Assembly: GCF_000211855.2 (NCBI RefSeq) | Contig: NC_015638.1 | Location: 248,001 to 312,000 of the forward strand | Length of the DNA: 64,000 bases | Reading direction: 5' to 3' | Source of the DNA: Lacinutrix sp. 5H-3-7-4 | GTDB lineage: Bacteria; Bacteroidota; Bacteroidia; Flavobacteriales; Flavobacteriaceae | In this document: positions 33,195 to 42,442 of the stretch, one piece after another | Layout of the letters: every line of letters starts with the position of its first letter | Position numbering within the stretch: the first letter of the stretch is position 1 | Translations under genes and position numbers: made by a program | Notes under the pieces: generated by a model | What the model was told of the DNA's origin: nothing | Database searches by the model: none | The model's input: only the letters and a program-made list of their open reading frames with translations

Positions 33195-34592
33195 TTAATC
33201 TTTTATTTCGTTTATATTATTAATTGTTGAAGTTCCATATTTATCGAAAAGATAAATTAAGCTTGTCATGGTTGCTGCTCCTAATTCTAACTCCCTTTTA
33301 TTAACAGCATCAAAAGTATCGTTTGCAGCATGGTGATGATCAAAATAACGTTGTGAATCTGGACGTAATCCTGCTAAAACTATATTATCATTTTTTAATG
33401 GGCCAATATCTGCGCCACTATATCCTTTTTCAAAATAATGAATTAAATAAGGTTTAAATAATGGCTCCCAACTTAATACTTTATTTAAGTTAGCTTCACT
33501 ACAATCAAAACTAAAACCTCTTGGTGTAAAACCACCAGAGTCGCTCTCTAAAGCAAACACATGATTTTCGTTTTTACGTTTTGCTTCTTCAGCATATTTT
33601 TTACCACCGCGTAATCCATTTTCTTCATTCATAAACAAAACAACTCTAATAGTTCGTTTTGGTTTTACACCACTTTCTTTTAACAAACGTAATACATCCA
33701 TAGATTGTACAACTCCTGCGCCATCATCATGAGAACCGTCGCCCAAATCCCAAGAATCTAAGTGACCACCAACTACCATATACTCGTTTGGAAATTCGCT
33801 TCCTGTAATTTCTCCTATTACGTTATAGGACAAAACATCTTCAAACTGTTTACAATTTTGTTTAAAATAAAATTCTAGATTTTTATCATTTTTTAAAGCT
33901 TTAGATAAAATATTTGCATCGTTTGTACTTATTGCTGCACTTGGTATGCGTTGGTTATTTGGTAAGTCTAGATAACCCATACTACCTGTGTGCGGAAAAT
34001 TATCTTCTCGTAAATTTAAAGATCTTACAATTACACCAAGCGCTCCTAATTTACCTGCTTCGTATGCTCCTGCATAGCGTTGTTTTGAACAACCTCCATA
34101 GGCTTCGAATGTATTTATTAACTCTGGATTCATTGCGCCATTAAAAAATACAATTTTACCTTTTACACTTGTTCCTAATTTAGCTAATTCTTCAAAGCTT
34201 TTTACTTCTACGACTTTAGCTTTTAATCCTGTTTTGGGAGTTGCAACAGATCCTCCTAAAGCACAAATATTTACATTTATTTGTTTTCCTAAAGTTGTAA
34301 AATAACCAACTTCTTTTTCTCCACGTTCCCATTTTGGTACCATAACTTCTTGAAGCCATACTTTATCTAAACCTAATTTTTCTAATTCGGCTTTTGTGTA
34401 TTGCACGGCTTTTTCTGCATTTACAGAACCAGATAGCCTACCGCCTATTTGGTTTGATAAATGGTCTAACCAGTGGTAAGATTTACCGTTTGTTAGTGAT
34501 TGACTGTAAATAGTTTTTAGGGTTTCTTTATCGTTTTGTGAGAACACGTTAACTGATAAAAATAGTGCTGCGAAAATAAGTTTTAGTTTCAT
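33195..34592 (-). CDS. Secreted M28 family metallopeptidase
   Basis: A 465-residue protein with a signal peptide (about 1-18, ending NVFSQ). The peptidase domain has the zinc-ligand motifs GGHLDSWDLGDGSHDDGAG (His, Asp), MNEENGLRGG (catalytic and metal Glu), ESDSGG (Asp) and HHHAANDTFD (His). A protease-associated-like insert precedes it (about residues 120-240). It should act outside the cytoplasm as an aminopeptidase or carboxypeptidase on oligopeptides. No T9SS sorting domain is present at its C-terminus, so periplasmic location is likely. Confidence 0.9.
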   Translation of the reverse strand: MKLKLIFAALFLSVNVFSQNDKETLKTIYSQSLTNGKSYHWLDHLSNQIGGRLSGSVNAEKAVQYTKAELEKLGLDKVWLQEVMVPKWERGEKEVGYFTTLGKQINVNICALGGSVATPKTGLKAKVVEVKSFEELAKLGTSVKGKIVFFNGAMNPELINTFEAYGGCSKQRYAGAYEAGKLGALGVIVRSLNLREDNFPHTGSMGYLDLPNNQRIPSAAISTNDANILSKALKNDKNLEFYFKQNCKQFEDVLSYNVIGEITGSEFPNEYMVVGGHLDSWDLGDGSHDDGAGVVQSMDVLRLLKESGVKPKRTIRVVLFMNEENGLRGGKKYAEEAKRKNENHVFALESDSGGFTPRGFSFDCSEANLNKVLSWEPLFKPYLIHYFEKGYSGADIGPLKNDNIVLAGLRPDSQRYFDHHHAANDTFDAVNKRELELGAATMTSLIYLFDKYGTSTINNINEIKD

Positions 34593-34600
34593 ATTGTGTG

Positions 34601-34690
34601 CGTTAGCGATTGTAATGGCATCCTTTTTTTTGCTGCCGTATATGGCAAAAAAAAGATATAATGAAAAGCGCGACCTTTTGGTAACGCCCT
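34601..34690. repeat. Putative dispersed palindromic intergenic element
   Basis: A 90-bp segment, richer in GC than its surroundings, is bounded by short inverted ends (GCGTTA / TAACGC) and folds centrally on TTTTTTTTGC...GCAAAAAAAA with an inner GCC / GGC pair. I remember elements of similar design (GGGCGTTA ... TTTTTTGCC ... AACGC) between genes in many flavobacterial genomes. It is the only copy I found in this window. It may also terminate PPK2 transcription. Confidence 0.45.
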
Positions 34691-40066: not shown

Positions 40067-40993
40067 CTAATTATTCTTTACTGTTTGAATAAATATGTCG
40101 TTTGCACTTGGTATTACTTCTACAAAATGAGACAACTCACCTTTTGTAGTTAAATAACTTAATAGTTGATTTGCCGTTTCTTTTTCTGAAAGTTTAATGT
40201 TAAGTTTCAATTCATTATTTAACGATTTAAATTCTGCTGGAGAAACAATAAATTTTTCAGAAAGTGTTTGTTGTAATTCTAAAGGATTTTCTGCATTTAT
40301 ACCAATTTCAAATGTATTGGTTTTATACTCGCGTTTTATGGCATTTAAATTACCATCTAAAACCTTATTAGATTTATGAATTAAAGCAATATGATCACAT
40401 AACTCTTCTACAGATTCCATACGGTGTGTAGAAAAAATCACTGTAGCTCCTTCATCACGTAATCTTAAAATTTGATCTTTTATAATATTGGCATTAATTG
40501 GGTCAAAGCCCGAAAAAGGCTCATCAAAAATCAATAATTTAGGTTCATGTAATACAGTAACAACAAACTGTATTTTTTGAGCCATACCTTTAGATAGTTC
40601 TTGAATTTTTTTATTCCACCAATCTCCTATTTCTAATCTCTCAAACCAATCTAACAATCTTTTTTTAGCTACTGCTTTGTCCATACCTTTTAGCTGCGCT
40701 AGGTATAAGGCTTGTTCTCCTACCTTCATAGACTTATATAAACCGCGCTCTTCTGGTAAATAACCAATGTTTTGTATATGATGCCTTTTTAAAGGCTCGC
40801 CATCTAACAAAACATGTCCTGTATCTGGTATAGTTATTTGATTTATAATTCTAATTAATGTGGTTTTTCCAGCACCATTTGGTCCTAGTAATCCAAATAT
40901 GCTACCTTTTGGTACTGCAATAGAAACATTATTTAATGCTTTAAAATTTCCGAAACTTTTAGAAACCGAGTGTGCTTCTAATAAATTGTTCAT
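40067..40993 (-). CDS. ABC transporter ATP-binding protein (NatA-like)
   Basis: A 308-residue ATPase with Walker A GPNGAGKT (about 36-43), signature ELSKGMAQKIQF, Walker B LLIFDEPFSGFDP and H-loop STHRMES. A C-terminal region of about 80 residues follows, as in the DUF4162 group. First gene of the operon ABC ATPase, permease, mscS, DUF6268, sigma-54 regulator. The operon ends at the 35.7 kb terminator. Confidence 0.92.
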   Translation of the reverse strand: MNNLLEAHSVSKSFGNFKALNNVSIAVPKGSIFGLLGPNGAGKTTLIRIINQITIPDTGHVLLDGEPLKRHHIQNIGYLPEERGLYKSMKVGEQALYLAQLKGMDKAVAKKRLLDWFERLEIGDWWNKKIQELSKGMAQKIQFVVTVLHEPKLLIFDEPFSGFDPINANIIKDQILRLRDEGATVIFSTHRMESVEELCDHIALIHKSNKVLDGNLNAIKREYKTNTFEIGINAENPLELQQTLSEKFIVSPAEFKSLNNELKLNIKLSEKETANQLLSYLTTKGELSHFVEVIPSANDIFIQTVKNN

Positions 40994-41115: not shown

Positions 41116-41204
41116 CTAAAAAAAACAAAACCCACCCTTAGTAAACTAAGGATGGGAAAAAATTGCTATGAAAAAGAAAAATTACCACTAGCTTTAACTA
41201 GTGA
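41116..41204 (-). ncRNA. Candidate small RNA between dnaJ and the ABC operon
   Basis: On the minus strand an exact -7 box TATATTTG (41217-41210) is followed by a hairpin (CACTAG / CTAGTG, 41203-41186), an A/T-rich linker and a strong terminator hairpin (11 bp with one G-U pair, 41156-41131, loop TTTA) with a long U tract. It would give an RNA of about 85-90 nt. No ORF longer than a few codons lies in it. It sits between the separate dnaJ terminator and the ABC operon start. No homologous family was recognised. Confidence 0.5.
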
Positions 41205-41209
41205 TAAAC

Positions 41210-41217
41210 CAAATATA
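41210..41217 (-). promoter_or_regulatory. -7 box for the candidate small RNA
   Basis: Exact TATATTTG on the minus strand; a -33 TTG was not clear (AGTTAAA at the expected distance). Confidence 0.4.
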
Positions 41218-41266: not shown

Positions 41267-41302
41267 AACAAAAAAAATCCGCGAATTGTTCGCGGATTTT
41301 AT
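41267..41302 (-). terminator. dnaJ terminator
   Basis: A 12-bp perfect stem AAAATCCGCGAA / TTCGCGGATTTT with a 3-nt loop, followed by T on the minus strand, 22 nt past the dnaJ stop. Confidence 0.92.
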
Positions 41303-41323: not shown

Positions 41324-42442
41324 TTAAGAGAACATGTCTTTTACTTTTTCAAAAAATGATTTATCAGATTTTTCTGGTTTTGGTGAAAAATGATCATCAT
41401 CTTTCATGTTTTCAAAAAATTCTTTTTGTTGTTTACTTAATGTTTTAGGTGTCCAAACATTTACGTGTACTAGTAAATCTCCTTTACCGTAACCGTTTAT
41501 ACTTGGAATTCCTTTTCCGCGTAAGCGTAAAATTTTACCAGATTGTAAACCTGCTTCAATTTTTATTCTCACTTTTCCAGAAACAGTATCTATTTCTTTA
41601 GATGTTCCTAAAACAGCATCACTAATGCTTACATATAAATCATAGTGTAAATTATCTCCTTCACGCTGTAATGTTTCGTGATCTAGTTCTTCAATCGCTA
41701 CTAAAAGGTCTCCTGCTATACCATTTCCTGGAGCATCATTACCTTTACCAGACACCTTTAGTTGCATACCATCTACAACGCCTGCAGGAATTTTTACTGC
41801 AATTGTTTCTTCTTTAGTAACTAAACCTTGCGCATCTGCTTCGGCTGGTTTTTTATCTATAATTTGACCAGAACCACCACATGTTGTACATGGTGATGCT
41901 GTTTGCATACGGCCTAAAATTGTATTAGTAACACGTGTAACTTGACCAGAGCCATTACAGGTTGTACAGGTTTTATAAGTAGTACCTTTTGCTTGTATTT
42001 TACGTTTTACTTTTATTTTTTTCTCTACACCATTAGCAATTTCTTCAAGTGTAAGCTTAACACGAATACGTAGATTACTTCCTTTTACTCGACGTTGTTG
42101 TTGGCCTCCACCAAAACCGCCGCCAAAGCCAGAAAAACCGCCACCTCCAAAAATGTCACCAAATTGGCTAAATATATCGTCCATATTCATGCCGCCGCCG
42201 CCAAAACCGCCGCCACCTTCAAAGGCTTGATGACCAAATTGGTCATAACGTGCTTTTTTGTTTTCGTCACTTAAAACCTCATATGCTTCGGCTGCTTCTT
42301 TAAATTTAGCCTCGGCTGTAGAGTCGTCTGGATTTTTATCTGGGTGAAACTCAATAGCTTTTTTACGGTAAGCTTTTTTTATCTCACTTGCTGTTGCGTT
42401 TTTACTTAATCCTAATATTTCGTAATAATCTTTTTTTGCCAT
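41324..42442 (-). CDS. dnaJ: Chaperone DnaJ (Hsp40) with reduced zinc domain
   Basis: A 372-residue co-chaperone that stimulates DnaK ATPase activity. The J domain has the HPD motif at residues 33-35, a Gly/Phe-rich linker spans about 75-115, and C-terminal client-binding domains follow. The zinc region contains only two CxxCxGxG motifs (CTTCNGSG at 159 and CTTCGGSG at 185), enough for one zinc site, whereas classical DnaJ has four motifs and two sites. I believe this short form is usual for the group. It follows grpE on the same strand with a 51-nt gap. Confidence 0.96.
   Translation of the reverse strand: MAKKDYYEILGLSKNATASEIKKAYRKKAIEFHPDKNPDDSTAEAKFKEAAEAYEVLSDENKKARYDQFGHQAFEGGGGFGGGGMNMDDIFSQFGDIFGGGGFSGFGGGFGGGQQQRRVKGSNLRIRVKLTLEEIANGVEKKIKVKRKIQAKGTTYKTCTTCNGSGQVTRVTNTILGRMQTASPCTTCGGSGQIIDKKPAEADAQGLVTKEETIAVKIPAGVVDGMQLKVSGKGNDAPGNGIAGDLLVAIEELDHETLQREGDNLHYDLYVSISDAVLGTSKEIDTVSGKVRIKIEAGLQSGKILRLRGKGIPSINGYGKGDLLVHVNVWTPKTLSKQQKEFFENMKDDDHFSPKPEKSDKSFFEKVKDMFS

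Follow-up and report, generated by a model that had tools for sequence, protein, structure and literature searches.

A candidate trans-acting, base-pairing small RNA of the Flavobacteriaceae, encoded mostly behind dnaJ, and its putative recA-linked partner RNA

A short element on the minus strand between dnaJ and an ABC transporter gene of Lacinutrix sp. 5H-3-7-4 is probably the gene of a trans-acting, base-pairing small RNA (sRNA) of the Flavobacteriaceae, with an RNA read divergently from recA as its partner. Comparison of its copies shows that four parts are conserved together, mostly behind dnaJ: a box resembling a promoter, a hairpin at the 5′ end, a core that is nearly invariant and a predicted intrinsic terminator. 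Base pairing is the likely mode of action of the putative sRNA, and the comparative evidence supports the recA-divergent RNA as one old partner.

The stretch analysed, hereafter the window, comprises 64,000 nt of contig NC_015638.1. In window coordinates, the features of the locus are as follows:

41324..42442, minus strand: dnaJ, the upstream neighbour (same-strand dnaJ upstream in 158 of 190 copies)
41274..41300, minus strand: separate terminator behind dnaJ (terminator scan)
41210..41217, minus strand: −7 promoter box TATATTTG, of the Bacteroidetes sigma-A type consensus TAnnTTTG (PMC9723704)
41118..41205, minus strand: predicted small RNA of about 85-89 nt, without ATG (fold and covariance model; ends inferred)
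41182..41207, minus strand: hairpin 1, 11 bp with a loop of 4 (fold and terminator scan; sequence variable, pairing kept family-wide)
41157..41181, minus strand: linker of 25 nt between hairpin 1 and the terminator hairpin
41159..41177, minus strand: near-invariant core UCUUUUUCAUAGCAAUUUU, the proposed pairing region (comparison of copies)
41131..41156, minus strand: hairpin 2, the intrinsic terminator stem, 11 bp with a loop of 4 (fold and terminator scan)
41118..41130, minus strand: U tract UUUUGUUUUUUUU, directly 3′ of hairpin 2 (sequence and terminator scan)
40067..40993, minus strand: ABC transporter ATPase, the downstream neighbour (within 1.5 kb in 115 of 190 copies)

The initial annotation of the window had described a minus-strand box, hairpin, linker and 11-bp terminator with a U tract as a unit separate from the dnaJ terminator. 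Sequence, fold and terminator scan confirm this arrangement at 41217-41118, and the scan places the dnaJ terminator at 41300-41274. Over 500 bases, the scan found three sites, all on the minus strand, against 0.1 expected; they include the separate dnaJ terminator and hairpin 1, which the annotation had not called terminator-like. The predicted folding energy of the minus strand is -31.0 kcal/mol (z -7.45), a value equalled by none of 200 shuffles, and the plus strand folds more weakly, at -20.8 kcal/mol (z -6.02). The single G-U pair of each hairpin is A-C on the plus strand, and the earlier argument for the minus orientation therefore holds. A plus-strand gene was rejected on account of its weaker fold and of its short frame, MKKKNYH, which is the complement of the core.

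The RNA expected from about 41205 to 41118 has no ATG, and its sole closed GTG/TTG frame is 16 codons long, in agreement with the expectation of an RNA without an ORF. We placed its start point from the TAnnTTTG element, which sits at -12 to -5 (PMC9723704). The minimum-energy fold consists of two hairpins and weak outer pairing, and the AGCAA end of the linker pairs with the U tract; the linker is therefore not wholly free. At gathering score, a scan of the window with Rfam 15 returned only Flavo-1, elsewhere in the window, and nothing at the sRNA, where all hits of a permissive scan fell below gathering score. A known RNA family was rejected as the identity of the element, since no Rfam 15 family fits it. 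The Flavo-1 RNA (RF01705), a flavobacterial motif of no known function, lies at 34581-34679 on the plus strand (63.3 bits).

The annotation had proposed a covariance search as a check on its reading of the element as a stand-alone small RNA. A covariance model built from 60 copies matches the window's genome (G000:C1:289122-289210, minus strand) and, in all, 174 of 199 sampled Flavobacteriaceae genomes (173 of 198 sampled genera), with rough E-values and with some of the matched sequences having helped to build the model. The 60 copies of this model (R1) were picked from 119 non-redundant rows by the exact 14-base core, which is thus invariant there by construction. In a sample of 198 genomes of the class, the model matches four, namely the window's genome, two other family members and G268; three family genomes of one genus are without a match. 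G268 (E 4e-4) was rejected as a homolog outside the family, since it lacks the core and has just an A-rich stretch plus a terminator. A DNA search with the 330-nt intergenic region matched 60 of 99 relatives; 54 of these have the sRNA itself, all among the 60 same-family genomes, the rest being weak matches elsewhere, and one of the six family relatives missed by this search, G014, holds diverged sRNA copies. The exact core pattern occurs in at least 118 stretches of GTDB genomes, and among the matches listed (80 titles) these are Flavobacteriaceae genera or flavobacterial/Bacteroidota metagenome-assembled genomes.

Most genomes hold one covariance-model match. The 190 copies with analysed neighbours include 5 duplicates (185 distinct): the 158 noted above lie directly behind dnaJ, 114 have dnaJ upstream as well as the ABC gene downstream, and 31 adjoin neither. 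In dnaJ-linked copies, the median distance from the end of the dnaJ match to the core is 73 nt. Tandem arrays were seen at two loci, with four copies in L089 (G045) and three in L256 (G014), spaced by about 250-490 nt. At another locus, L175, core and terminator follow almost immediately on the stop codon of dnaJ, with neither box nor hairpin 1, as a 3′-UTR version of the sRNA.

Copies also occur in phages. The exact 18-base core is present in 23 IMG/VR contigs (L440-L462) and is followed by a stable hairpin (≤ -10 kcal/mol) in 17 of them; L459, a core contig without the hairpin, is probably a chance match, and Acinetobacter phage 133 was also a BLAST hit. Among isolated phages, the element lies between annotated genes in Polaribacter phage Leef_1 (Helgolandviridae), in Tenacibaculum phage Gundel_1 (Pachyviridae) and in Polaribacter phages Freya_1 and Danklef_1 (Forsetiviridae), the core of the latter two being one U longer. 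These four copies (L463-L466) keep the hairpin-core-terminator anatomy, and 17 records, counting duplicates in RefSeq, hold the Freya/Danklef element. A query with the window RNA gave no match in phages; phage copies were found via the exact core and via phage elements as queries. The terms small RNA, sRNA, ncRNA and noncoding are absent from the accessible text of the paper describing the phages (PMC8776804).

We compared the constancy of the individual parts across copies. In 163 of 181 copies, TAnnTTTG is found 22-43 nt ahead of the core (shuffled mean 4.1), and 130 of the 181 carry the exact TATATTTG there (shuffled mean 0.6). In 62 copies found by BLAST, whose seeds also favour the core, the positions of UCUUUUUCAUAGCAAUUUU are 97-100% identical and most positions of hairpin 1 only 34-64%; UCUUUUUCAUAGCAAUUUU is exact in 60 of the 62, and the copy of G032, which is among them, has a diverged core. 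Mean unpaired probability over the 181 copies is predicted to be 0.66-0.80 in the U-rich part of the core and 0.25-0.40 at its AGCAA end.

Both hairpins are predicted to be stable in the 175 copies that remain of the 181 rows after leaving out L104, which matches the partner strand, and rows that are short or contain N, with a mean z of -4.20 for hairpin 1 (94% below -2) and of -4.27 for hairpin 2. Because hairpin 1 varies in length, the comparison of its pairs was confined to four geometries, each with 4-8 distinct stems; within these fixed geometries paired positions change together, for example as TA, AT and GC at one position. In hairpin 2, counted on alignment A1, the consensus of which itself gave the structure, two-sided changes occur in 7 of 9 pairs, 97.9% of cells are paired and the covariation score was reached by 0 of 500 shuffles. 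The annotation had named as a test whether relatives sharing the gene order conserve the hairpins, and both stems indeed stay paired via two-sided changes. With box, hairpins and core conserved together and the covariance model matching across the family, these comparisons support the stand-alone small RNA.

The sRNA core is antisense to GGGAAA-N-UUGCUAUGAAAAA near the 5′ end of an RNA read divergently from recA. Searched with the sRNA region, the window's genome gave one non-self match (G000:C1:1257417-1257462), the other strand of which complements the core; 20 contiguous bases match between the core and the recA-divergent leader, and the site is flanked by recA and by a small ORF oriented away from that gene. 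The leader is present in 13 of 13 same-genus genomes (the window's genome, 10 more, G009 and G010), with recA adjacency checked in G000, G001, G004, G010 and G011 and the other flanks looking alike; the leader of G009 has a partial recA match at a distance of about 0.5 kb. Pairing is kept through G-U in the leaders of G004 (GCUGUG) and G009 (GUUGUG). In G050, of another genus, sRNA and leader share a matching change beside the core, and the leader loses one pair (ACUAUG).

In many genera, the partner encodes a 30-residue peptide. Most leaders of peptide-carrying genomes read GGGAAA-N-UUGCUAUGAA just behind the promoter-like CGCAACCTTT-N-CATCTA; L302, L308 and L315 are among the few unlike this pattern. 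The promoter was recognised in 26 sRNA-bearing genomes, 19 of which have GCTRTGAA exactly and 24 when close variants are included; G019 and G026 have the sRNA and the recA-divergent promoter and no clear site. Twenty-four leaders were aligned on the positions of GCUAUGAA, which as the anchor are conserved partly by construction; outside the anchor, conservation of the GGGAAA and UU positions before the site reaches at best 92% for a G, 92-96% for AA and 88-92% for UU, and beginning some nine bases past the start of the site it drops to 33-62%. The RNA looks short and terminator-ended, and its predicted promoter class differs from that of the sRNA. The same promoter-like CGCAACCTTT-N-CATCTA stands on both sides of recA in the window's genome (G000:C1:1256178-1256266 and 1257392-1257480). 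The gene on the far side of recA looks like a lipoprotein gene, and its start region in G112, G100 and G137 also carries GCTATGAAAA.

We paired the core in silico with 500 nt of recA-divergent sequence from 57 of the 174 sRNA-positive genomes (60 selected; no recA match in G028 and G109, a partial one in G009). Energies of -18 kcal/mol or lower were reached in 27 of the 57, compared with 2 on the opposite strand and 8 for the mean of three cores with permuted centres. Eighteen of the 25 sRNA-negative genomes were treated likewise (20 selected, 18 with a recA match); five reached -18 (G133, G016, G116, G103 and G106), with none on the opposite strand and two for the mean of the permuted cores. 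Permuted cores come close in G016, G116 and G106, not in G103, and of the five only G133, a genome 89% complete in which the model finds no sRNA, has the GCTATGAA site behind the promoter.

A further control used leaders behind the same promoter, at 30 loci out of 53 genomes with a promoter match. Here -18 was reached by 13 of 17 recA-divergent leaders versus a single one of the 24 others, which comprise 15 on the far side of recA (one reaching it) and 9 elsewhere (none). The motif itself occurs in 11 of 17 recA-divergent leaders, 2 of 15 on the far side and 0 of 9 elsewhere, and is therefore not confined to the recA-divergent side. Across 60 genomes, the core complement at ≤1 mismatch finds mainly sRNA loci, and a universal perfect target was rejected on this ground. 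About 14 one-mismatch complements outside sRNA loci, as read from the list, compare with 5 for the reversed pattern in these genomes, and ATGAAAAA within the motif by itself favours gene starts. Twenty candidate stretches were gene interiors, gene starts and repeats, except the recA leader of G009, and the others were discarded as evidence. Lipoprotein leaders in G010 and G036 resemble the partner site as single cases.

A search for the conserved end of the peptide matched 29 of 199 family genomes. The ORF is exactly 30 codons long in 23 of 25 entries (24 genomes) and has D or E before GG in 25 of 25; since the ORF search demanded 26-36 codons, an M[KR] start and a GG end, what this tells is the length within that range and the D/E only. 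The peptide has basic residues at its start, a short, weakly hydrophobic middle and a polar end. No NCBIfam match was found for two members of this family, which lies beside recA (L002 1592-1684 and orthologs). The AUG of the site is the start of the peptide in G017, G041, G052 and G133; in the window's genome, 65 nt separate the site from the peptide start downstream, and the site covers no more than a five-codon frame.

Site and peptide do not always occur together. Nine genera keep the site or a variant, yet no 26-36-codon M[KR]...GG ORF was found there, and complementarity is therefore retained where the peptide is not. In G018, G020 and G112, the AUG of the site opens 4, 5 and 11 codons, and the peptide is absent; G029 keeps a variant of the site without an AUG, and likewise without the peptide. 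In G013, G023, G030, G044 and G049, the site lies inside a predicted hairpin structure followed by a terminator, and its AUG opens 29, 24, 5, 26 and 37 codons, respectively. Because four of these frames, those of G013, G023, G044 and G049, span 24-37 codons, the transcripts may be coding, and other peptides are possible. Upstream of recA in G049 and G044 (L282 and L283), the frames opened by the core complement resemble each other (MKKKKW.GQLRVL...) and may encode another small peptide. In G111, the peptide is kept behind a leader without the site, and there is no sRNA match.

We propose that the sRNA would pair with the recA-divergent leader without Hfq, and that this pairing would block translation of the recA-divergent RNA or trigger its decay. 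The Hfq profile PF17209 was found in 0 of 60 relatives and was positive in 5 of 14 control genomes, including E. coli and B. subtilis. Further mRNAs with UUGCUAUGAAAAA at their start would be targets as well, and the position behind dnaJ may couple the level of the sRNA to chaperone transcription where no other terminator intervenes. A more far-reaching version, which we put forward tentatively, is a two-RNA switch in which the dnaJ-linked sRNA and its recA-linked antisense partner stand under different promoter classes, the partner alternates in evolution between an mRNA for a 30-residue peptide ending in [DE]GG and a decoy RNA with the site kept, and phages carry sRNA copies to take over or disturb the switch.

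Where the partner is without the peptide, the recA-divergent RNA may titrate the sRNA instead. It is conceivable, if rather unlikely, that this is its primary role throughout, as a sponge that inactivates an sRNA with main targets elsewhere, the peptide being secondary or lost. The nine genera with the site and without the 30-residue peptide fit such a role, as do the frames of only 4-11 codons opened by the site in G018, G020 and G112 and the short, terminator-ended appearance of a transcript whose promoter class is unlike that of the sRNA. However, the constant length of 30 codons in nearly all entries points to selection on the peptide as well, in four genomes the ORF starts at the site itself, and the longer frames of G013, G023, G044 and G049 may mean that even peptide-less transcripts are coding.

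Strong recA-linked pairing is lacking in 30 of the 57 sRNA-bearing genomes, so the partner cannot explain the constancy of the core everywhere; it covers roughly half of this sample, so that elsewhere the core would be held constant by further targets or by contact with a protein. An alternative reading is a real RNA with an invariant core that binds a protein, such as an RRM protein, and is not an antisense region. Such a site would account for a core more constant than the known partner requires, and part of the core is predicted to be paired; RbpB of Bacteroides prefers single-stranded, AU-rich RNA (PMC11697453). It does not, however, predict a complementary match at one other place in the genome or the strand bias of that match, nor does it predict the concentration of the match in recA-divergent leaders among same-promoter leaders and its retention without the peptide. 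We consider this reading unlikely, and base pairing with the recA-divergent RNA remains the account that we prefer.

In IstR-1/tisB and other trans-encoded type I systems, a small RNA from a separate locus is complementary to the leader of a very short ORF. The dnaJ-linked sRNA resembles these in being encoded away from, and antisense to, a small-ORF leader, and a type I pair with the sRNA as antitoxin and the 30-residue peptide as toxin would explain why the sRNA is antisense to the start region of so short an ORF, the first residues of which are basic. The predicted pairing covers the translation start in G017, G041, G052 and G133, but not in the window's genome, where the site lies further upstream. 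The middle of the peptide is, however, short and weakly hydrophobic and its end polar, the site without the peptide and the peptide without the site both occur, and many genomes have the sRNA without a detected partner. Unlike in IstR-1/tisB, the site is kept without the peptide in nine genera, and a role of the peptide as a toxin is purely hypothetical. We regard a toxin-antitoxin pair as improbable.

Least probable is a double terminator of dnaJ, in which hairpins 1 and 2 with their U-rich tails enclose an A-T-rich spacer and no RNA gene exists: hairpin 1 does score as a terminator, the core starts ≤60 nt from the end of the dnaJ match in 16 copies and it directly follows dnaJ without hairpin 1 or box in L175, but a spacer should drift, yet the core is the most conserved part, the window already has a separate terminator behind dnaJ, TAnnTTTG keeps a narrow range of distances in nearly all copies, and copies without a dnaJ or ABC neighbour exist, with the phage copies keeping the anatomy.

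The predicted base-pairing sRNA can be set beside known sRNAs of the phylum. FopS/GibS of Bacteroides thetaiotaomicron have a conserved seed, an intrinsic terminator and pairing near start codons, occur in several copies per genome with a phage copy reported, and belong to a family, FopS, that is in Rfam (PMC11697453). Like them, the dnaJ-linked RNA is a putative Bacteroidota sRNA with a conserved seed-like core, an intrinsic terminator, predicted pairing near start codons and phage copies. It differs in its 5′ hairpin, its place behind dnaJ, its single copy in most genomes and its bacterial family, and its best partner is a recA-linked small transcript as opposed to susC for FopS/GibS (PMC11697453). 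The FopS Rfam model gave no match to the dnaJ-linked RNA at gathering score.

In Flavobacterium psychrophilum, the sRNA Rfp18 is required for normal expression of proteases; it is conserved beyond its species, strongly structured and predicted to pair with mRNA through its third stem-loop (PMC9723704). The dnaJ-linked RNA is likewise a predicted flavobacterial sRNA, conserved beyond one species, strongly structured and predicted to pair with RNA. Rfp18, compared by description, has a third stem-loop, and the window RNA, with its ends inferred, has two hairpins. Rfp11 lies at 182 kb, Rfp36 at 840 kb and the grpE-dnaJ promoter at 1,798 kb, and the Rfp numbers look positional (PMC9723704). Because of the pairing through a third stem-loop and a position that would fall between 182 and 840 kb, we think that Rfp18 is a different RNA from the dnaJ-linked sRNA, set apart by description, not by sequence. 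The same study may have recorded the dnaJ-linked RNA under another Rfp number. Among the open-access papers listed, and as far as their accessible text goes, we found one study of Flavobacteriaceae sRNAs (PMC9723704) and no description of a dnaJ-linked sRNA with a recA-linked partner. Flavo-1 is likewise a flavobacterial RNA of unknown function, and its model does not match the dnaJ-linked RNA.

The Flavobacteriaceae live in marine and fresh waters and include agents of fish disease. The conserved core and its candidate partner suggest that an RNA switch may be widespread among them. The sRNA has a core that hardly changes, a candidate partner within its own genome and copies in phage isolates, so that its function is directly testable, in bacteria without detected Hfq. 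If confirmed, the shift of the partner from a peptide mRNA to a peptide-less transcript would show how a target can turn into a sponge.
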